NCBI GenBank assembly: GCA_027341705.1 | Contig: DAIELO010000008.1 | Coordinates: 1 to 14,978, forward strand | DNA from: Caryophanales bacterium | GTDB taxonomy: Bacteria; Bacillota; Bacilli; Alicyclobacillales; SLC66 | Direction: 5' to 3' | Length of the DNA stretch: 14,978 bases | In this document: positions 3-10,773 of the stretch, in pieces | Layout of the letters: the number at the start of each line of letters is the position of its first letter | How positions within the stretch are numbered: the first letter of the stretch is position 1 | Program-made: the position numbers and the translations under genes | The notes under the pieces: model-generated | The model's input: only the letters and a program-made list of their open reading frames with translations | The model's database searches: none | Told to the model about the DNA's origin: nothing

Positions 3-560
3 ACTAACGCTGTACCCTCTCCATCTGTTGTCGAAGAATTATCGTCAATCAGTCAGGTGATTGACAGATCTATCAAAGAATTGCGCAATTCTCTTTATGA
101 TTTGAACTTTGAACTTGAAACTGATTTTTTTGAGTTCATTCGCGAACACGCCATTCAGTTAGAACTTCGCTCTGGCATCAAGACAGAGGTGGATATTCAA
201 GATACTGGTTCCGCTTGGGCCGATCGGGTGGAGGTACAATTAGCGCGAATGGCCAAAGAAGTCCTCACCAACATTCAAAAACACTCACATTCCCGTTTTG
301 TGCGTTTGTGGTTTAACAGAACGCCGCAGGAGATGCGTATCGTCATTTCTGATGATGGTATTGGTTTTAATCCAAAAGTAGCCCAAGAAGACCCGCAGCA
401 TTATGGGATTAAGTCAATTGAGGAACGCTGTAGAATACTTGGCGGAACTGCGAATGTAGATTCTCAACCCGGTCAAGGAACCACGTGGAAATTCCACATT
501 CCCGCACACTATGAAGCACAACACAGCATTCCACAAGCTACCCCAACACATTCCATTTAA
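3..560 (+). CDS. Sensor histidine kinase of the NarL/DegS type, C-terminal part (5' end outside window)
   Basis: The reading frame is open from base 3 to the stop at 558-560, so the gene begins before the window; a GTG at 57 is internal and not a likely start. The visible part is the end of the dimerisation domain (KELRNSLYDL, typical of the HisKA_3 class after its His) followed by a HATPase domain. The N-box is EVLTNIQKHSHS, the G1 box is ISDDGIGFN, and the G2 region is HYGIKSIEERCRILGG, ending in GQGTTWKFHIP. Such kinases autophosphorylate and pass the phosphate to LuxR/NarL-type response regulators. The sensing domain is not visible. No regulator follows it on this strand, since a terminator sits directly downstream. 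The partner may lie upstream of the window or may be the regulator at 3031-3714; that pairing is inference only. Confidence 0.9.
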   Translation, partial: TNAVPSPSVVEELSSISQVIDRSIKELRNSLYDLNFELETDFFEFIREHAIQLELRSGIKTEVDIQDTGSAWADRVEVQLARMAKEVLTNIQKHSHSRFVRLWFNRTPQEMRIVISDDGIGFNPKVAQEDPQHYGIKSIEERCRILGGTANVDSQPGQGTTWKFHIPAHYEAQHSIPQATPTHSI

Positions 561-623: not shown

Positions 624-2282
624 TTATACTTTGGAATACCAATCTTTCCACAGTTGCCAAAGCGTATATCCCCCTGCCCAGTTGTAAACAGATTGAAATC
701 CATGCTGTCTTAATATCCGCGAAGCCACATAACTCCTGAATCCACTTCGGCAATAAAGAACCACCGGATGATTGGGATCAAGTTCGTTAATATGATCACG
801 AAAACCAGGAAGCGGAATAAGTTTCGCTCCCTCCATACTGCCTTTCGCAGTTTCGTCAGGATCCCGCACATCTACAATTTGTACATTCGGGGCGAACATG
901 TCAAAATGTTCGGTTTGCACCACTTCTACCAACCCATCCAGAATATTCTGTGCTGTCATCGCTGCCATAATGATAGGATCTTTTGCTGATCCAAAAGGCG
1001 GCGCATAGGCCAAATCCAACTCCATCAGATCGGTGACAGTTAACTTCGAATAAATTGCCGTAGCAAGGACGTCTATGCGCTTGTCGACGCCTTCCGTGCC
1101 AGTAATTTGAGCACCAATAATCTTGCCCTCATCAGGTGTAAAGAGCAATTTGATAATCATGTCCTTTGCCCCAGGATAATATCCTGCATGATGTTTCGAG
1201 ATCGTATAGGAAACTTTATAAGGCTGGTTTGCTCTTTTCGCAGATTTCTCCGTAAGTCCAGTTTGAGCTAAAACTTGATCTTGAAAACGAACGATAGAAG
1301 TACCGAGCACCCCTGCGAATTTTCCTGGCCTCCCCATCATGTGATTAGCAATCACGCGCGCTTGCTTGTTAGCAGGTCCTGCGAGCGGAATCCAAGTGTC
1401 CTCACCTGTCGATTGAAAAGTACTATCCGCCAAGTCACCTGCAGCATAAATATCTGGGTCACTCGACTGTAAATACTCATTCACCTTGATAGAGCCTGCG
1501 ACACCCAAATCAAGTCCTGATTGTTTGGCAATAACCGAATCTGGCCTCACACCTAGTCCTAATAAGAACATGTCACCCGCCACTTCATTGCCTGACTCCA
1601 GCACCACTCGTTGGGCCACTCCATCACCTTGCAACGATTGAATCCCGTCATTCAAAATAAGCTCTACGCCGGCCTTTTCCAGCGCCTTAATCACTGGTAT
1701 GGTCATTTCCGGATCAGCAGGTGGCATGATTTGCGGTGCCTTCTCAATCAAAGACACCTTCAACCCCCTTAACAAGAAAGCCTCTACCATTTCAATGCCA
1801 ATAAAACCTGCGCCAATCACGACTGCATGTTTCACAAGATCACTAGAAATTTTATCCTGAATGGCATCTACATCAGGAACTGATCTTAACTGATACACAT
1901 TTGAAAAATCAATTCCAGGAATCGGCGGACGAATTGGCGCAGCGCCTTGTGCTAATACCAGCTTGTCATAGCTTTCTTCATATGATTGTCCCTTGTCATG
2001 ATCAAGAATTGTCACTGTTTTATGGTCACGATCAATCGACACAAGTTCATTTTTCACACGGACATCTATGTGAAAGCGTGCACGTAAACTTTCAGGCGTA
2101 TTTAAGATTAACTCTTCACGCTCTTTAATTTCACCAGCAATGTAGTAGGGCAGCCCACAATTAGCAAAGGAAACATATTCACCCTTTTCCAAAAGTATAA
2201 TCTCAGCCTTCTCGTTCAGTCTTCTCAACCTTGCTGCGGTTCCTGCCCCAACAGCAACGCCTCCAGCGATGACAATTTTCAT
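624..2282 (-). CDS. CoA-disulfide reductase / persulfide reductase fused to a C-terminal rhodanese domain (CoADR-RHD)
   Basis: This is a 552-residue cytoplasmic FAD/NAD(P)H flavoprotein. Residues 1 to about 330 form the two-nucleotide-binding pyridine-nucleotide disulfide oxidoreductase fold. The FAD motif starts at VIAGGVAVGAG, and the single active Cys is C42 in SFANCGLPYY, the hallmark of CoADR and NADH oxidase/Npsr enzymes. A second nucleotide-binding motif is VIGAGFIGIE, and AAGDLAD binds the FAD. A dimerisation domain follows, and from about residue 455 a rhodanese domain with DVRDP and the active loop CRSGFRS (C511). Known relatives reduce CoA disulfide or CoA persulfide, and the rhodanese Cys carries sulfane sulfur. 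The start has a clear AGGAGG 8 nt upstream. A terminator at 2385-2425 separates it from the preceding unit, so it is probably transcribed alone. The second glycine-loop position reads GGVAVGAG where GGVAGGAS is more usual. Confidence 0.93.
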   Translation of the reverse strand: MKIVIAGGVAVGAGTAARLRRLNEKAEIILLEKGEYVSFANCGLPYYIAGEIKEREELILNTPESLRARFHIDVRVKNELVSIDRDHKTVTILDHDKGQSYEESYDKLVLAQGAAPIRPPIPGIDFSNVYQLRSVPDVDAIQDKISSDLVKHAVVIGAGFIGIEMVEAFLLRGLKVSLIEKAPQIMPPADPEMTIPVIKALEKAGVELILNDGIQSLQGDGVAQRVVLESGNEVAGDMFLLGLGVRPDSVIAKQSGLDLGVAGSIKVNEYLQSSDPDIYAAGDLADSTFQSTGEDTWIPLAGPANKQARVIANHMMGRPGKFAGVLGTSIVRFQDQVLAQTGLTEKSAKRANQPYKVSYTISKHHAGYYPGAKDMIIKLLFTPDEGKIIGAQITGTEGVDKRIDVLATAIYSKLTVTDLMELDLAYAPPFGSAKDPIIMAAMTAQNILDGLVEVVQTEHFDMFAPNVQIVDVRDPDETAKGSMEGAKLIPLPGFRDHINELDPNHPVVLYCRSGFRSYVASRILRQHGFQSVYNWAGGYTLWQLWKDWYSKV

Positions 2283-2425: not shown

Positions 2426-2458
2426 AAACGATCCAATGTATTTATAATAACAAAAAAA

Positions 2459-3034
2459 TCATTTAAATGATTCTTTGTTGTCATTTAAATCATGAAATAA
2501 ATTGTCTAATCTAGTCAGTTCATCCTCAACCAATCGTAAATTCGATTCAATCGATTCACTGTGTTTTGAAAACAACAACAGTCGCATGGCTAACAGAGAA
2601 TTTCTTACTTCGTTCACCATCGACCAAGGGATTACCTGCGGAGTCTGAATAAAGCCATAAATCTCCTGCTTGCGACGAATGGACGCCACTTTGTGCTCAC
2701 GACCCAGCCACGCAATATACATACATCCCAGATATACTAACGCCTCAAGAGGAACTTCTGACCAAAAAAAACCGACCTGCGAAAATCGAATGCCTGTTAA
2801 AATAAGCCCTCCGATAATCGCGGGAATAAATCCAAGTAAATACCCAATCGCACCGACCAAGACCACTTCAATGCTCATTTCTATATTATGAAGCAAAAAG
2901 CCCAAAATACACAGACCGATACCGATGACAGCAGCAATTAACGTCATTTTTTGCTTCAAAAAATCAAATAATAGCTGATCATAGTGATGTATTCGAGTTA
3001 ACCTTCCCATCCTATTCGCATCCCAATTTTTCAT
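2459..3034 (-). CDS. Membrane protein with a degenerate histidine-kinase DHp domain and no ATPase domain
   Basis: The product has 191 residues. After a charged N-terminus come hydrophobic segments at about 31-51, 55-82 and 95-110, then a basic linker and a roughly 55-residue helical hairpin. That hairpin matches the HisKA dimerisation pattern: VNEVRNSLLAMRLLL followed by LRLVEDELTRLDNLFHDL. In working kinases the first helix reads HE(V/I)RNPL; here the phospho-accepting His is Asn (N141). The gene stops right after the second helix and a terminator follows, so there is no catalytic ATP-binding domain. The ATG overlaps the stop of the response-regulator gene (ATGA), indicating translational coupling. 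I infer a membrane-bound partner or antagonist of the regulator, or of another kinase, that works by heterodimerisation or sequestration. It may instead be a shrinking relic of a sensor kinase. It cannot be an ordinary kinase by itself. Confidence 0.8.
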   Translation of the reverse strand: MKNWDANRMGRLTRIHHYDQLLFDFLKQKMTLIAAVIGIGLCILGFLLHNIEMSIEVVLVGAIGYLLGFIPAIIGGLILTGIRFSQVGFFWSEVPLEALVYLGCMYIAWLGREHKVASIRRKQEIYGFIQTPQVIPWSMVNEVRNSLLAMRLLLFSKHSESIESNLRLVEDELTRLDNLFHDLNDNKESFK

Positions 3035-3714
3035 GTATTCGACATATCCGAATCATTTGAATTATTTTCATCAACAAGTCCTTCCCTTACCGCATAGGTG
3101 GCAGCTTCCACGCGATTGGATACATGTAGTTTGTCCAATATATTTCTCACGTGATTTCGTACTGTGTTTTCACTGATAAACAGACGTTTTGCGATATCAC
3201 GATTAGAAGCGCCTGTCCCCAACTCTCGTAGCACCTCAATCTCGCGTGCAGTTAATGGCTCCACACCATCACCAACGGGTGCCGAAGCCTTAGGTCTAGA
3301 CATTTCAGATAGAATCCGCAATGCGAGATTACTGGGGACTACAGCCTCTCCTGCTGCAACACTTCGAATAGAATGCAGTAACTCCTCTGGATCCACCGTT
3401 TTTAACACATAACCTTGCGCACCAGATTTTACCGCTTCAAACAAGGAGCGCTCATCTTCGTTCACCGTCAGAATTAAAATTTTCACTTGATGATCCACAT
3501 CACGTATACGTTTTGTGGCTTCCATCCCGCCCATTACAGGCATTGCCAAATCCATGATCAATACATCTGGATGCGTTTTCTGGACTAGTGCAATCGCATC
3601 CCTACCGTTGTCAGCTTCACCTACTACTTCTATATCCGAAGACGCATTAATAATACCGATCACACCTTTTCTAAACAAATGGTGATCGTCAACTACATTA
3701 ACCTGAATCGACAT
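3031..3714 (-). CDS. Two-component response regulator, NarL/FixJ (LuxR-type) family
   Basis: This is a 227-residue cytoplasmic DNA-binding regulator. The receiver domain (about 1-120) has the acidic pair D9-D10, phospho-acceptor D55 in LIMDLAMPVMGG, T83 and K105, so all residues needed for phosphorylation are present. The C-terminal LuxR helix-turn-helix spans about 152-215 (LTAREIEVLRELGTGASNRD, then SENTVRNHVRNI). The tail after 215 is short, polar and Asn/Ser-rich. A GGGTGGG ribosome binding site precedes the ATG. It lies 37 nt downstream of the cation-efflux gene and overlaps the DHp-domain protein by 4 bp, so the three form a unit. DegU, NreC and LiaR/VraR are relatives by overall pattern, but the sequence does not choose among them. 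It could bind the GACTAT/ATAGTC repeats upstream of this unit and of cydA; that is inference. Confidence 0.93.
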   Translation of the reverse strand: MSIQVNVVDDHHLFRKGVIGIINASSDIEVVGEADNGRDAIALVQKTHPDVLIMDLAMPVMGGMEATKRIRDVDHQVKILILTVNEDERSLFEAVKSGAQGYVLKTVDPEELLHSIRSVAAGEAVVPSNLALRILSEMSRPKASAPVGDGVEPLTAREIEVLRELGTGASNRDIAKRLFISENTVRNHVRNILDKLHVSNRVEAATYAVREGLVDENNSNDSDMSNT

Positions 3715-4664: not shown

Positions 4665-4748
4665 GACTATCTTTAGATCTTTACATTTTTATGATTTCTC
4701 AACTACACACCAACGGACTATGCAGATATAGTCCATATAGACTATATC
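4665..4748 (-). promoter_or_regulatory. Operator array with GACTAT/ATAGTC half-sites upstream of the CDF unit
   Basis: On the plus strand three half-sites lie exactly 12 bp apart in alternating orientation: GACTAT at 4716-4721, ATAGTC at 4728-4733 and GACTAT at 4740-4745. The first pair is a perfect 7-bp inverted repeat (GGACTAT/ATAGTCC) with a 6-nt spacer. The second pair is a perfect 9-bp inverted repeat (GATATAGTC/GACTATATC) with a 6-nt spacer, and it overlaps the cydC stop codon. A further isolated GACTAT is at 4665-4670, near the CDF start. A possible minus-strand promoter (TTGGTG, 16 nt, TAAAAA) lies between the array and the gene, which would suit an activator site. The same motif occurs upstream of cydA at 10776-10793. 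The regulator is unknown. Confidence 0.65.
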
Positions 4749-6487
4749 GCTACTTCTTGTTGTTGTATTAATTGTTTTTGCACATCCCACATCTGTCGGT
4801 ACAGTCCGTTTTTTTCCAGCAATTCATCATGAGTCCCTCTCTCTACAATTTCACCGCGACTCATCACCAGTATTTCATCCATCAATTCCAGTCCCGTCAA
4901 CCGATGAGTAATCCATAACATCGACTTCCCACGCAACGCCTCGTGGATTGATACAAGCAGCTGTTCTTCTGTAATCGCATCCATGCCAGAAGTAGGCTCA
5001 TCAAAAATGTTAATCGGTGCCCCTGAGAGCACCACCCTGGCAATAGCCAAACGTTGTCGTTCACCACCAGATAGCTTATACCCTTGTTCGCCGATAAACG
5101 TATCGTATTGCTCGGGTAATTTTTGAATAAAGCGATCTGCAAGCGCAATTTTTGCAGCTATTTCAATCTCTTCTACATTAGCATTAGGCCGTGCTAACTG
5201 CAGATTCTGTTTTACGCTGGTATTAAATAAATGTGGCTTTTGTGGTGAGACTGCAATCTGCTGATGGATTGCGTCTATCGTATAGTCTTTGAGCTCATCA
5301 TTACCAAGATTAATAGTACCTTTTTCATAATCAAAAAATCGTGCCAACACTTGTACGAGACTACTTTTCCCAGCCCCACTTGGACCAACAATTGCGGTGT
5401 GTTTTCCCGGTGTCAATTCAAAAGAAATATTTTTGATCACATCAGAGGCGTCAGGAAGATAGCGAAAAAACAACTGATTAATAACTAACGATGGTTCCAT
5501 AGAACCATCGAAATTGCGTTTCCCATCTACTACTGCAGGCTTTGCGTCCAACAAATCAAGCAAATGGCGCATGGATGCAAACCCGCGACCCAAATATTGA
5601 AATGCAAGTGGCAATGGCAATACGGCTTCAAAACTTGCTAACGCGGTTTGCGCAATCACCGTCAGGTCTACTCCCGTTATTTTCCCTAATTGAACCATTG
5701 GAATCGCGACTAGTAGCAACACCCACATCGAGAAGTGATTTAAAAAAATCATCAACCCATTAGTCAATCCACCAATACTCGCCATTTTAATCTGCTTTTG
5801 TACGAGATCACGCTGACGCAAGCTCAAATTACTGATCGCCTTCTCCTCTTGAGAAAACGCTAAAATATCTGACATCCCCTGAATGGTATCCACCAAATCT
5901 GCAGTAAAAGAAGAACGCAACTGTACAATTTCAGACCCCAAATGGTTCCCCAACAGATAAGTAAGGCCTGGTACACCTAGACCTGCAACCAGCAGGATCA
6001 CAATTTGAATCACTCCAAGTTGAATAGAGAACAGTGACAAAAGTAAAAATACGATCACCATCACAACAATCGCGATCAGTGGAGGGGCAATCGCCCGTAA
6101 ATAAAGATCCTGAAGCGTGTCCACATCAGACACCGCACTACTCAGCACATCGCCGCTGCGAAATGTAAATAACCTTGCAGGTGCAAGCGGCTCTAAGCGA
6201 TCATAAAACCACGTACGCATCGTGGACAAAATGCGAAACGTGAGATCATGTGAAAAATATCGTTCCCCGTATCGAAAAACAGCGCGCGCCATGCCAAAAA
6301 ATCGCACACCTACGATAGGTACCCACAATAATAACACTGTAGACGGATGCAATGCGGCACTTGCAATCAGGTACCCTGAAGTGGCTAACAGTCCTATATT
6401 AGAAGCCACAGTTAACACACCAAGTAAAGTAGCCCACGATAGCGCCACTTTATGAGGGATGATAAAGCGATACAAGGTTCTAATCAC
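4742..6487 (-). CDS. cydC: Thiol reductant ABC exporter subunit CydC (ATP-binding/permease)
   Basis: With a GTG start at 6487 the product has 581 residues, normal for this half-transporter. A transmembrane domain fills about 1-310 and an ABC ATPase domain follows. The ATPase domain has Walker A GPSGAGKSS (about 368-376), the Q-loop region VSPQKPHLF, signature LSGGE (472-476), Walker B INIFDEP and the H-loop His in WITHRL (H528). With CydD it forms the inner-membrane exporter for glutathione, cysteine or related thiols needed for cytochrome bd assembly. The GTG is preferred over an ATG at 6511: it has AGGGG 8 nt upstream, while the ATG has no ribosome binding site. The GTG overlaps the cydD stop by 8 bp, indicating coupling. 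The N-terminal NIGLLATSGYLIASAAL is typical of CydC. It is the last gene of the cyd operon; its stop lies inside the operator repeat of the next unit. Confidence 0.93.
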   Translation of the reverse strand: MIRTLYRFIIPHKVALSWATLLGVLTVASNIGLLATSGYLIASAALHPSTVLLLWVPIVGVRFFGMARAVFRYGERYFSHDLTFRILSTMRTWFYDRLEPLAPARLFTFRSGDVLSSAVSDVDTLQDLYLRAIAPPLIAIVVMVIVFLLLSLFSIQLGVIQIVILLVAGLGVPGLTYLLGNHLGSEIVQLRSSFTADLVDTIQGMSDILAFSQEEKAISNLSLRQRDLVQKQIKMASIGGLTNGLMIFLNHFSMWVLLLVAIPMVQLGKITGVDLTVIAQTALASFEAVLPLPLAFQYLGRGFASMRHLLDLLDAKPAVVDGKRNFDGSMEPSLVINQLFFRYLPDASDVIKNISFELTPGKHTAIVGPSGAGKSSLVQVLARFFDYEKGTINLGNDELKDYTIDAIHQQIAVSPQKPHLFNTSVKQNLQLARPNANVEEIEIAAKIALADRFIQKLPEQYDTFIGEQGYKLSGGERQRLAIARVVLSGAPINIFDEPTSGMDAITEEQLLVSIHEALRGKSMLWITHRLTGLELMDEILVMSRGEIVERGTHDELLEKNGLYRQMWDVQKQLIQQQEVAI

Positions 6488-8228
6488 GAAGATTTCCCCT
6501 TTCCCCCACATACGCGGTTAATAATTGATGGTACAGTCCTTTTCGCGCCAGCAGTTCAGTATGATGTCCCTGATCAATAAGTTCCCCTTCGTTCATCACC
6601 AGAATGCGATCCATGCGCGTGATCGTACTTAACCGATGAGCAATCACAAATACAGTTTTATCGACAAATAAATCCCGCAACGCATGTTCAATCCAACGCT
6701 CACTCTCTGGATCCAAATTAGCAGTAGGCTCGTCCAATAGTATCAATTGACTGTCCTTCAAAAAAGCACGTGCCAGCGCAATCCGTTGAATTTGACCACC
6801 GCTTAGTCCAGTTCCGTCTTCACCGACCAACGTGTTGTAACTCTTTGGCAAACTTTGAATAAATTCATCTGCACCCGCTTTTGTAGCAGCTTCAATCAAT
6901 CGCTCCATTGGACAATCAGGACAAGCTAGCCGAAGATTATCCGCGATTGAACCATGAAACAAATGAGGGTGCTGCGGCAAATAGGTAATTTGTTTTCGCC
7001 ATGATGCAATGGTGGCAGACGTTAAGCGCTGATCTTGTATACGAATCTCACCAATACCAGGCGTGATAAAACCCAGCAGCAAATGCATGATGGTACTCTT
7101 TCCCGCACCGGTAGGGCCTACGAGCGCCACTTTTTCTCCTTGACTAATAGTCAGGTTCAAATCATTTAACGCTACGTTTTGCGCCCCTTGATATTGAAAT
7201 GTCACGCGTTCAAACGCGACCATTCCCCAATTCTCTACTAATTCTACAGCGTTCGATGCATTGAATGACTCTTCTAAAACAGGTGCATCCAATAATTCAA
7301 ATATACGGTCTGCCGCAATCACACCATTCATTCCGGCATGAAACTGTGTACCAAGTAAACGAATAGGCATGTAGAATTCCGGAGCAAGTAACAATACGAA
7401 AAAAGCATTTTGAAACTGCATGTTACCAGAAATTAACCGCAGTCCAATAAATACTGCCACAATGGCCGTACTCAAAGTGGTCAAGAGTTCAAGCGCAAAC
7501 GCCGATAAAAAGGCCACTCTCAATGTATCCATCGTAGTTTTACGGTAACGATCACTAATGCGACGAATCACTTCTAGTTGGTAGCGACTGCGATTAAATA
7601 GCTTTAATGTAGTCAACCCTTGCAACACATCCAGAAAGTGTGCGCTCAGTAGACTTAGCGTTTCAAACTGTTGCTTGCTTTTTTTTTCAGCTTGACGCCC
7701 AATTAACATCATAAAGTATGGAATGAGCGGCCATGTGACTACAAAAATAATCGCTGTCACCCAATCGTTGGGAACGACAAAAGCCAAGATGGTTAACGGA
7801 ACCAATGCAGAAACTGCCAGTTGGGGTATATAGCGTGCTAAATATACTTCTAATGATTCAATTCCCTCTAAAACCGTGTTGGTGACCTCTCCCGTACGTT
7901 CACCGCGCATATATACGGGTCCCAATTGGAACAGTCGCCGGATTAATTGATCTCTTAATTGTTCTTTCACTTTTAACGCGACTCGCAGTGCAAATACTTC
8001 ACTAGCCCATCCCACCACTGCCCTAAAAAAAATAACAATAAGTAGTCCCACAAAAAGCCCAGTGAGATCAGAAAGTTGCCAATGCATCAAAAATGCACGA
8101 TTCACAATACGCGATAGAAAACTCGCTTCTGCAATAGCAATTAAGCCACCCGCTAGCCCTAACCCAACGGTTAAGGCTAGCAGATGGCGAACTTCATGAA
8201 TCTGCGTAAAAATTCTCTTTTTAATCAT
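6480..8228 (-). CDS. cydD: Thiol reductant ABC exporter subunit CydD (ATP-binding/permease)
   Basis: The product has 582 residues. An N-terminal membrane domain (about 15-310) contains the long coupling-helix region and YMRGERTGEV, a pattern shared by CydD proteins. The ATPase domain has Walker A GPTGAGKST (371-379), signature LSGGQ (475-479), Walker B LILLDEPTANLD (about 495-506) and the H-loop His531 in IAHRLST. It acts as a heterodimer with CydC, exporting thiols to the outside and so supporting heme insertion into cytochrome bd. It begins 10 nt after cydB with only a modest ribosome binding site (GACGGGT), which suggests translation is partly coupled to cydB. Assignment to CydD rather than CydC rests on gene order and the N-terminal pattern; the ABC exporter class itself is certain. 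Confidence 0.92.
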   Translation of the reverse strand: MIKKRIFTQIHEVRHLLALTVGLGLAGGLIAIAEASFLSRIVNRAFLMHWQLSDLTGLFVGLLIVIFFRAVVGWASEVFALRVALKVKEQLRDQLIRRLFQLGPVYMRGERTGEVTNTVLEGIESLEVYLARYIPQLAVSALVPLTILAFVVPNDWVTAIIFVVTWPLIPYFMMLIGRQAEKKSKQQFETLSLLSAHFLDVLQGLTTLKLFNRSRYQLEVIRRISDRYRKTTMDTLRVAFLSAFALELLTTLSTAIVAVFIGLRLISGNMQFQNAFFVLLLAPEFYMPIRLLGTQFHAGMNGVIAADRIFELLDAPVLEESFNASNAVELVENWGMVAFERVTFQYQGAQNVALNDLNLTISQGEKVALVGPTGAGKSTIMHLLLGFITPGIGEIRIQDQRLTSATIASWRKQITYLPQHPHLFHGSIADNLRLACPDCPMERLIEAATKAGADEFIQSLPKSYNTLVGEDGTGLSGGQIQRIALARAFLKDSQLILLDEPTANLDPESERWIEHALRDLFVDKTVFVIAHRLSTITRMDRILVMNEGELIDQGHHTELLARKGLYHQLLTAYVGERGNLRD

Positions 8229-8238
8229 GTTTTACCCG

Positions 8239-9255
8239 TCAATAATCCATGTGATCTGTGATCGAAACACGTTTGCGGAAAATGTAGTATGTCCAAATTT
8301 GATAAGCAAGCACAATGGGAACCATAATCAACGCGACAATCGTCATCACGAATAGTGAATGATGATTAGAAGCCGCATTATAAATGGTGAGGTTCCATTG
8401 TGGATTCGTGCTGCTCACCATGACATTAGGATACATGCCCAAGAACATACCCGTGGTCGTTAAGGCAATCGCAAGACCTACAAAAGTAAATGCCCAACCG
8501 CCGTGCTTTCCTACGAGAAAGCGCACCGACAGTACTGCGATAAACGCAATCACGAAAATGACAAAAATCAATGCAGAACTGATACTGTACCTAAATACTT
8601 CACTTGGCACATAGCTAAATATCACAAACACCAAGAGCACTATGGCGACGGGGATACCCATCGTTGTCGCAAATTTTTTCGCTCTCGCTTCCACATTGCC
8701 AGTCGTTTTCAAGCTCAAGAAAAGTGAACCATGAAGCATGAAAACGAGTAAGAACGCCACGCCACCAAGCAATGCATACGGATTCAGCAAGGTTAACAAT
8801 GAACCAGTAAAATTCATGTGACCATCGATTGGTACACCCCTGACAATGTTGGCAAACGCCACACCCCAGAGAAGTGCAGGAAGTAGACGCCCAACAAAAA
8901 TCAGCCAATCCCATGTATTGCGCCAACTCGATCCAGGGTTTTTACTGCGATACTCAAGACCTAATCCGCGCAGAATCAAACCAATCAGCAACAAAAACAA
9001 CGCTAAGTAGAATCCACTAAAGAGTGTAGCATACCAATTGGGGAATGCTGCAAACATCGCACCGCCCGCCGTTAGTAGCCAAACCTCGTTGCCATCCCAC
9101 ACAGGACCTATGCTGTTTAGGACCACCCGACGTTCTAAGTCATTTTGCCCGACAAAGGGGAGTAAAATTCCAACGCCATAGTCAAATCCTTCAAGGAAAA
9201 AGTATCCGATGAACAACACCATTTCAAGTATAAACCAAAGTGTATTTAAGCTCAT
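8239..9255 (-). CDS. cydB: Cytochrome bd ubiquinol/menaquinol oxidase subunit II
   Basis: This 338-residue protein is hydrophobic throughout, with about eight to nine transmembrane helices. The family motifs are clear: FFLEGFDYGVGILLPF near the N-terminus and GPVWDGNEVWLL with GGAMFAAFP after it. CydB packs against CydA and holds the peripheral structure of the oxidase; it carries no heme ligands of its own in the classical enzyme. A strong ribosome binding site (GGAAGGAGG) precedes the ATG. The gene starts 21 nt after the cydA stop and 10 nt before cydD, so all four cyd genes form one operon. Length is a little short of the 370-380 residues common in enterobacteria and normal for Gram-positive homologues. 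Confidence 0.96.
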   Translation of the reverse strand: MSLNTLWFILEMVLFIGYFFLEGFDYGVGILLPFVGQNDLERRVVLNSIGPVWDGNEVWLLTAGGAMFAAFPNWYATLFSGFYLALFLLLIGLILRGLGLEYRSKNPGSSWRNTWDWLIFVGRLLPALLWGVAFANIVRGVPIDGHMNFTGSLLTLLNPYALLGGVAFLLVFMLHGSLFLSLKTTGNVEARAKKFATTMGIPVAIVLLVFVIFSYVPSEVFRYSISSALIFVIFVIAFIAVLSVRFLVGKHGGWAFTFVGLAIALTTTGMFLGMYPNVMVSSTNPQWNLTIYNAASNHHSLFVMTIVALIMVPIVLAYQIWTYYIFRKRVSITDHMDY

Positions 9256-9276
9256 TTCCTCGCCTCCTTCCCTAAA

Positions 9277-10656
9277 TTAAAATGTAGATGTTATATCCGC
9301 AGAAACATCGTGCTGCTCTTCGACTTCAAATCCTAATTTTGTATACTTGTTCATCAAGCCAATCATGACCACTGCCATGATCCCGTAAATAAGACCAAAT
9401 CCAATGAGTGTAGTCAGCGCCTCTCCCACCGAAACAATAGGCGAACTACTGATATCTGTTTTTAATAATCCAAACACCGACCAAGGTTGTCGACCGATTT
9501 CTGTCATAATCCAGCCCATCGAGTTCGCAATGAACGGCAGTGAAATGGACCAGAGTAAGATCCGCATAAATCGCGGGCTACTTTCTAATTTATTGCGACG
9601 AACGACCACAATCCCCCACAGCGAAATCAGAATCATCAATACTCCCGCAAGCACCATAATCCGGAAGCTCCAATACGTCGTATTCACTGGTGGAATATAG
9701 TTCCCTGGTCCATATTTTTGTACATATTGTTGTTGCAATTCATTCATGCCTTGCACTTTTCCACTTAGGCTGTCATAAGACAAAATACTTAGCACATAGG
9801 GAATATCTACACTGAACGTATTCTTGTGTTGCACAGCGTCAATGCCTGCAATCAATGACCACGGAGCATGTTCTGGACTTGTATTCCAAAGCCCCTCAGC
9901 AGCGGCTGTTTTCATTGGTTGCGCCTTGACTAAGTGCTGTGCCTGAAGGTGTCCTAAAAACGCAACTAGTAAGCTAGAGATAACGGCCATGGTTAATGCT
10001 ACCTTGAATGCCCGTTTAAATACATCTACATGATATTTGCGAAGCAATTGATAGGCACTTATTCCCAACATAAAGAAAGAGGCTGTGGCCCAAGCACCAA
10101 AAATCACATGAGGGAATTCAACCAATAATTGTGGATTGCCGAGTAATGCAAAAAAACTCGTCATTTCTGCGTGACCATTGCGAATTGCGTACCCCACCGG
10201 TTCTTGCATAAATGAATTCGCGGATAAAATCCAGAGTGCAGATAATGCGGTACCAAATGCGACCAGCCAGATAGAGAGCAGGTGAACACGTTTAGATACT
10301 CGCTCCCAGCCAAAGACCCAGATCCCCAAAAAGGTGGATTCCATAAAAAATGCCAGTAGTGCTTCTACTGCTAGTGGAGCCCCAAAAACATCCCCGACAT
10401 AACGGGAATAATCAGACCAGTTCATACCAAACTGAAATTCTTGAAGAATTCCAGTCACCACACCAATGGCAAAGTTGATTAAAAAAAGTCTGCCAAAAAA
10501 TTGAATCAATTTCTTCATTTTCTCATCGCCAGATCGAACATACATCGTTTCTAATATGGCTAAAAGAAATGCAAGACCGATGGTCAGCGGCACAAACAAA
10601 AAATGGTACACTGTCGTCACACCAAACTGAATCCGGTCAACCATTAGAGCATGCAC
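9277..10656 (-). CDS. cydA: Cytochrome bd quinol oxidase subunit I
   Basis: This membrane oxidase subunit oxidises quinol and reduces O2 to water at high affinity without proton pumping. With a GTG start at 10656 it has 459 residues. The start is chosen because an AGGGGGG site lies 6 nt upstream and the protein then begins MHALMVDRIQFG, as in the family; the open frame to 10761 adds 35 residues of unrelated sequence. Key residues are visible: H18 (heme b595 ligand region), E98 and E106 (GAPLAVE and FFMES), H183 (FPHVIFG) and M334 (YWSFRIM), the last two matching the heme b558 ligands. The Q-loop has QPMKTAAAEGLW with K249 and E254. The protein lacks the long C-terminal Q-loop insert of E. coli CydA, so it is the short-loop type usual in Gram-positives. 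GRQPW is present near the C-terminus. Confidence 0.96.
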   Translation of the reverse strand: MHALMVDRIQFGVTTVYHFLFVPLTIGLAFLLAILETMYVRSGDEKMKKLIQFFGRLFLINFAIGVVTGILQEFQFGMNWSDYSRYVGDVFGAPLAVEALLAFFMESTFLGIWVFGWERVSKRVHLLSIWLVAFGTALSALWILSANSFMQEPVGYAIRNGHAEMTSFFALLGNPQLLVEFPHVIFGAWATASFFMLGISAYQLLRKYHVDVFKRAFKVALTMAVISSLLVAFLGHLQAQHLVKAQPMKTAAAEGLWNTSPEHAPWSLIAGIDAVQHKNTFSVDIPYVLSILSYDSLSGKVQGMNELQQQYVQKYGPGNYIPPVNTTYWSFRIMVLAGVLMILISLWGIVVVRRNKLESSPRFMRILLWSISLPFIANSMGWIMTEIGRQPWSVFGLLKTDISSSPIVSVGEALTTLIGFGLIYGIMAVVMIGLMNKYTKLGFEVEEQHDVSADITSTF

Positions 10657-10698
10657 GTTGTTCCCCCCTGTTCTTTGAAATATAATCACATAATAAAT

Positions 10699-10715
10699 GT
10701 TACAACTATTGCAAC
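10699..10715. promoter_or_regulatory. Imperfect palindrome in the cydA leader
   Basis: The 17-bp GTTACAACTATTGCAAC is an inverted repeat with 7-bp arms, one mismatch and a 3-nt centre. It lies about 43 nt upstream of the cydA GTG and overlaps possible -35 boxes (TTGCAA or TTGTAA on the minus strand). It does not match the Rex consensus (TTGTGA with TCACAA arms). A repressor site is possible; evidence is symmetry and position only. Confidence 0.3.
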
Positions 10716-10773
10716 GGTCTATCTGATCATACTCACTAGACTCTAAGGATAGGAGACACATTTTGACTGATAT

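Follow-up and report, generated by a model that had tools for sequence, protein, structure and literature searches.

A family of membrane-anchored, kinase-dead HisKA-like proteins linked to a NarL-type response regulator in relatives of Sulfoacidibacillus thermotolerans

The window (the whole 14,978 bp stretch of DNA analysed here, from a Caryophanales bacterium) contains a small gene whose product combines a membrane part with an apparent histidine-kinase DHp hairpin, and this raises the question of what such a protein could do with neither a phospho-acceptor histidine nor an ATPase domain. The preliminary description took it to be a kinase relic or pseudokinase that might sequester the adjacent response regulator, form a heterodimer with a kinase, or act as a phosphatase-like brake. 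We refer to it as pseudo-DHp, and the relevant features of the window are as follows.

2459..3034 (-): pseudo-DHp membrane protein gene, an ORF of 191 aa
2699..2962 (-): membrane-spanning segment of about residues 25-112, with probably four helices joined by tiny loops (AlphaFold2 helices, family-averaged hydropathy)
2693-2704 (-): Gly111/His114 codons, invariant, where the last membrane helix meets the cytoplasm
2480..2626 (-): HisKA-like DHp hairpin, residues 137-185 (profile comparisons, Pfam, Foldseek)
2612..2614 (-): Asn141 codon, at the position of the phospho-acceptor His (alignment to HisKA kinases)
2600..2602 (-): Asn145 codon, at H+4, the HisKA phosphatase residue (family alignment)
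2435..2490 (-): A+T-rich hairpin and U run across the stop codon, a possible terminator (fold energy)
3031..3714 (-): NarL/FixJ-type response regulator (Pfam Response_reg and GerE; orthologue group)
3..560 (+): PAS-HisKA_3-HATPase kinase, C-terminal piece of a gene cut by the window edge (HATPase_c match)
624..2282 (-): ORF whose product we take to be CoA-disulfide-reductase-like with a C-terminal rhodanese-like part
4742..10761 (-): ORFs that we take to be cydC, cydD, cydB and cydA (cytochrome bd oxidase and exporter)

The pseudo-DHp ATG shares four bases with the regulator stop codon (ATGA). The hairpin at its other end, which the preliminary description called a strong terminator, has a folding energy of -12.2 kcal/mol (z -4.1) and a U run, but is not among the calls of a consensus terminator scan of the window, so that label holds only in part. 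Full-length relatives of the kinase piece are present at three other loci (L002, L006, L007), and gene runs like the window cyd cluster at four (L002, L003, L011, L014).

The C-terminal hairpin and its membrane anchor

Family comparisons use an alignment of 59 distinct sequences, drawn from 66 matches of at least 130 aa in the window and in the order of S. thermotolerans; one member (L054) is cut at its N-terminus, and the 108-aa L050 copy and three kinase matches are excluded. Aligned by hhalign with 13 neighbouring HisKA kinases, the family gives P=1.2e-7 (probability 94%) with Asn141 opposite the acceptor His, and the C-terminal part by itself scores 56.8 (P=4.6e-8); 40 column-shuffled controls reach no more than 19.0 and a reversed one 14.6. 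A family HMM run on 4899 ORFs picks out HisKA domains in PAS-HisKA-HATPase kinases whose genes lie near pseudo-DHp, with independent E-values of 7.6e-6 and 2.5e-5 for the L048 and L049 kinases and only 0.023 for a third (L063), and here too Asn141 falls on their His. Pfam HisKA (PF00512) is the family matched by most of 50 family C-termini (21 at E<=10, best 3.6e-5); the window protein by itself, whether full-length or C-terminus only, has no HisKA model match, and no Pfam or NCBIfam model scores above its cut-off. Comparison with 16 neighbouring HisKA_3 kinases by hhalign yields no DHp-to-DHp match (probability <1%), and HisKA_3 (PF07730) does not match the window protein. By these sequence comparisons the C-terminal part is HisKA-like and not HisKA_3-like.

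With the HisKA DHp (PF00512; CrdS, HK853, NtrB) it shares the helix hairpin, an E-x-R-[T/N] motif and the H+4 phosphatase residue, and with the neighbouring HisKA kinases compared also ELxR[LI][ED] in the second helix; it differs in that Asn replaces the His, Ser replaces the Pro at H+5, and the HATPase domain is missing. The window protein has no match to a HATPase_c or CA-like domain and no room for one after the DHp part, as the ORF stops 14-49 residues past the E172 column in all 59 aligned sequences, the window's included. The phosphorylatable His of Spo0B/HPt phosphotransferases is likewise absent, the position being Asn141 in 59/59. Both the HisKA-type DHp with Asn for His and the early end of the gene, as first described, are thus borne out.

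AlphaFold2, given a 35-row alignment, models the full-length monomer with a mean pLDDT of 69 and helices at residues 2-47, 51-66, 69-87, 91-130, 137-156 and 164-190, and hydropathy averaged over the family is high at about residues 30-105. Residues 112-191 modelled alone as a monomer form three helices (pLDDT 76), the last two being the presumed hairpin. A Foldseek search of the PDB with this C-terminal model returns HK853 chains as 11 of the top 12 matches, none of them significant (best E 0.54), and places 4q20 (DivL) at rank 37 in the same search without significant matches. We read the models as predicting roughly four membrane helices, joined by very short loops, and then a cytoplasmic C-terminal hairpin. 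The window protein resembles 5TM-5TMR_LYT (PF07694) at E=0.0011 and 19.0 bits, below the 24.6 gathering cut-off, and this model matches 6 of 35 family members at E<=1 (best 4.4e-5). Weak Pfam matches of the family to ParD antitoxin and BioY were taken as chance.

Conservation and spread of the family

The strongly conserved positions fall mostly in the DHp part. Asn141, Trp137, Arg144, Ser146, Arg151, Glu172 and Arg175 are invariant in 59/59, Ser146 standing at H+5 in place of the usual HisKA Pro. Position H+1 is Glu in 52 sequences, Asp in five and Asn in two, and H+4 is Thr in 36, Asn in 20 (including Asn145 of the window) and Ser, a near substitute for Thr or Asn, in three. A database of 5.8 billion proteins yields 36 homologues among the 7999 candidates sharing most words, which were the ones scored, and all 36 contain the motif N-[EDN]-x-R-[NTS]-S. 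Proportions of non-synonymous and synonymous differences between the window and L002 are 0.156 and 0.766, with dS saturated, and dN/dS between the L002 and L003 genes is about 0.04. Because Asn141 and the early stop are kept throughout the alignment and non-synonymous change is low, the gene is, on this sequence evidence, under purifying selection and encodes a maintained protein; the term relic therefore does not apply. The preliminary description held that homologues with an intact His and a following ATPase domain in most relatives would point to recent decay. In the sets searched, such proteins appear only as ordinary kinases that lack the membrane part and match through the DHp alone.

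Within the GTDB order of S. thermotolerans the gene is present in 46 of 59 genomes. Wider samples, in which the first eight candidates per genome were scored so that distant copies could be missed, give 30 of 398 positive genomes for the class (E<=1e-8) and one of 398, namely G001, for the phylum (E<=1e-6). In the order of Fodinisporobacter ferrooxydans (G148) the family is found in one of 14 genomes. NCBI taxonomy places both Sulfoacidibacillus and Fodinisporobacter in the Alicyclobacillaceae, and in the sampled genomes the family is seen only in the neighbourhood of that family.

S. thermotolerans also has a 108-aa DHp-only paralogue (L050, 5572-5898), which keeps the Asn and lies upstream of a gene that we take to be DsrE-like; no regulator of the conserved group is present in this 12-kb stretch.

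Regulator, kinases and respiratory genes at the pseudo-DHp loci

A NarL-type regulator is the commonest neighbour of pseudo-DHp. The neighbour cluster, built from 59 loci with seven duplicate loci left out, contains 36 regulators, of which 33 full-length proteins (the window's own among them) and one fragment (L064) form a single orthologue group, 52-100% identical to the window regulator over the aligned part; the other two (L011, L097) are unrelated and CheY-like at 35%. Across 24 aligned orthologues, residues D9, D10, D55, T83 and K105 do not vary, in agreement with the earlier view of a fully equipped regulator. The two genes lie within 3.6 kb of each other at 38 of 64 loci and are convergent in 23 of these pairs, with the regulator first in nine, pseudo-DHp first in five, and a divergent arrangement in one. 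A linkage kept despite reorientation is better evidence of function than a frozen operon would be. The description of pseudo-DHp as membrane-tethered and linked to the regulator is upheld. For the remaining 26 pseudo-DHp matches, some of them at contig ends, the fetched stretch contains no orthologue of the regulator.

Regulator orthologues (E<=1e-75) are present in 45 of the 59 genomes of the order; 42 genomes have both genes, four only pseudo-DHp, three only the regulator and ten neither. The co-occurrence gives a Fisher P of 3.6e-6 uncorrected for kinship, and is not an independent test, since the genomes are related and some are incomplete; it may partly reflect shared descent. In one of the three regulator-only genomes (G056), a 40-residue tail of a pseudo-DHp gene (L128, 5277-5399) lies convergent to the regulator and represents either gene decay or an assembly error.

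The kinases beside the pairs are of PAS-HisKA_3 or PAS-HisKA type, with domains taken from examples. Counting only kinases inside the fetched stretches, the 38 pairs have HisKA_3 kinases only (19), HisKA kinases only (11), both (2, in which the HisKA kinase scores low and differs from the others) or none seen (6). Mapped onto a regulator tree of 43 rows, the kinase label requires seven or eight changes, three of them forced by well-supported branches. Depending on the species, a single group of NarL-type regulators is accompanied by HisKA_3 kinases or by HisKA kinases, the latter with PAS domains that presumably resemble those of Aer and NifL. These patterns point to an apparent replacement of the kinase on a conserved regulator, and the variation of kinase class beside a fixed pair argues that the regulator, and not the kinase, is the partner of pseudo-DHp.

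In raw counts, 29 of the 64 loci have, within 7 kb, a gene for a haem-copper oxidase, CtaA, bd oxidase or cytochrome b, L006 counting through a 28-29% match, and 35 loci show no such gene. The oxidases differ between lineages; in the window the cyd cluster is the one present, along with the CoA-disulfide-reductase-like gene. A copy of the 624..2282 gene more than 40% identical is present within 7 kb at eight of the 64 loci, the window included. A respiratory or redox role for the pseudo-DHp system is suggested by this gene content.

A proposed role and its alternatives

We propose, and give even chances to, a role in which a membrane-tethered, kinase-dead DHp docks to and restrains the NarL-type regulator, by phosphatase action or by holding it at the membrane, while a separate PAS kinase phosphorylates it. 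The protein would consist of a small polytopic anchor and a HisKA-type DHp hairpin, would be incapable of autophosphorylation because it has neither His nor ATPase domain, and most likely would dimerise. It would dock to the regulator receiver as a kinase DHp would, and the regulator would be restrained either by removal of its phosphate through the H+4 Thr/Asn, which is probably the route, or by retention at the membrane, with a membrane or respiratory signal in control. The dimer, the docking, the phosphatase action and the signal are steps that we infer. A membrane-held brake is the simplest reading of a protein in which what a kinase needs (His and an ATPase domain) has been dropped and what a phosphatase needs (H+4) has been kept.

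Studies of HisKA kinases provide a precedent. A Thr or Asn at H+4 is required for phosphatase activity, according to the available parts of PMC3510030 and PMC8292422. In the former, the half-life of CrdA~P is 53.5 min when CrdS is absent and 0.7 min when wild-type CrdS is present; replacement of the CrdS His by Ala keeps most of the phosphatase activity (2.6 min), and replacement of the H+4 Asn by Ala abolishes it (47.6 min). Several observations stand against the brake or phosphatase reading. The H+1 Glu, which in the same part of PMC3510030 is required for the kinase but not the phosphatase activity of CrdS, is kept in most of the family although selection for a phosphatase alone would not appear to require it, and the invariant Ser at H+5 would not be explained by it. 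A PleC His mutant lost both activities (available part of PMC3510030). The 26 loci and four genomes noted above show pseudo-DHp without a regulator match. Finally, the short Fodinisporobacter copies described below lie near a regulator that lacks the phospho-Asp, so that a phosphatase would have no substrate there.

A related reading, which we hold tentatively, gives a respiratory two-component system a third member of its own in pseudo-DHp, a kinase-free membrane DHp that keeps only the regulator-docking and phosphatase face of HisKA and that in one lineage has given rise to a phosphate-free pair of pseudo-DHp and pseudo-receiver. One conserved protein would then relay the off-signal from the membrane to the regulator, and the sensor kinase, even its class, could be exchanged.

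Pure sequestration, in which the receiver is bound at the membrane independently of phosphorylation and released on a signal, with no phosphatase chemistry, seems to us unlikely, and what favours it comes from F. ferrooxydans (G148). This genome has two membrane-anchored copies, two soluble 71-aa copies comprising only the DHp hairpin, and one 42-aa frame with a partial match. Both 71-aa copies keep Asn at the His position and lie on the same strand as a nearby NarL-like regulator, at L124 (regulator 5617-6285, pseudo-DHp 6518-6733) and L125 (regulator 9557-10225, pseudo-DHp 6489-6704). These regulators, a duplicated pair, are about 36% identical to the conserved group, and the phospho-Asp of their receivers is replaced by Ala or Val (LMAIRN, LMVIRN), so the 71-aa copies, if they are partners, must act without phosphate, and binding by itself may sometimes be enough. 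At L125, however, two genes intervene, one of 162 aa and the other for a cytochrome b, and the partnership is one that we infer. Across the family, the confinement of H+4 to Thr, Asn or Ser in 59/59 and the complete phosphorylation site of the usual partner regulator in 24/24 also speak against sequestration alone.

Pseudo-DHp could instead act on the sensor kinase, allosterically or as a heterodimer partner, in the way that RocA acts on CovS, which we consider doubtful. The pseudokinase RocA, with its six putative TM segments, interacts with CovS and depends on it (available part of PMC7028121), a kinase gene lies near 32 of the 38 pairs, and the HisKA kinases beside some of them have a DHp homologous to pseudo-DHp. 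Against this, a HisKA_3 kinase, whose DHp is dissimilar to pseudo-DHp, lies near 21 of the 38 pairs and is the sole class in 19, and within the fetched stretches the class switches while regulator and pseudo-DHp stay. Of the roles first suggested, the heterodimer is thus weakened, and on sequence grounds a regulator brake or sequestration fits best.

We regard it as very improbable that pseudo-DHp is a respiratory accessory protein, for instance in oxidase assembly, with an incidental link to signalling; this would account for the raw count of 29 loci with oxidase-type genes, but the regulator is the commonest neighbour, and conservation is strongest mostly in the DHp part. A recently decayed kinase, favoured only by the missing His and ATPase domain themselves and by the G056 tail, which indicates that the gene can be lost, is scarcely credible given the universal Asn and early stop and the purifying selection.

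If the proposed brake is correct, evolution would have split the on and off inputs of one regulator between two proteins, with the kinase exchangeable and the kinase-dead membrane DHp constant, and HisKA phosphatase and docking functions would be naturally separated from kinase function. Pseudo-DHp would then offer a direct test of what keeps such a domain under selection, and the proposal supplies a candidate regulator for terminal-oxidase regions in acidophilic Bacilli.

Some elements of this arrangement are familiar from other systems. DivL of Caulobacter is likewise a kinase-dead DHp in a two-component network, with Tyr in place of His, but keeps a kinase-like C-terminal domain that pseudo-DHp lacks. 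CheX and CheZ have other folds and are soluble, and SaePQ, LiaF and SpdC are membrane accessory proteins of two-component systems that are not known to have a DHp. DivL is termed a pseudo-histidine kinase (PMC9430884), with mention of a repurposed catalytic output domain (PMC4211667), and SpdC is described in PMC5854430. RocA of group A Streptococcus is similarly a polytopic membrane pseudokinase that modulates a two-component system, but has the DHp His (H246) and a CA-like domain and acts via CovS (available part of PMC7028121); the logic of DivL- and RocA-type pseudo-histidine kinases is thus similar, with pseudo-DHp differing in having no CA-like domain at all. CheX (ExxN) and CheZ (DxxxQ) resemble the proposed brake in dedicated regulator dephosphorylation with an acidic-plus-amide motif (available part of PMC3510030), and differ in acting on CheY and in that pseudo-DHp has a DHp-like part. 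Within the source text available for the papers listed, a literature search showed no described family of membrane DHp proteins without a catalytic domain in these bacteria.

Outside the hairpin, Gly111 and His114 are invariant (59/59) where the membrane part ends, as is Gly61 (59/59), and the conservation of Gly111 and His114 possibly marks a ligand- or quinone-sensing site.
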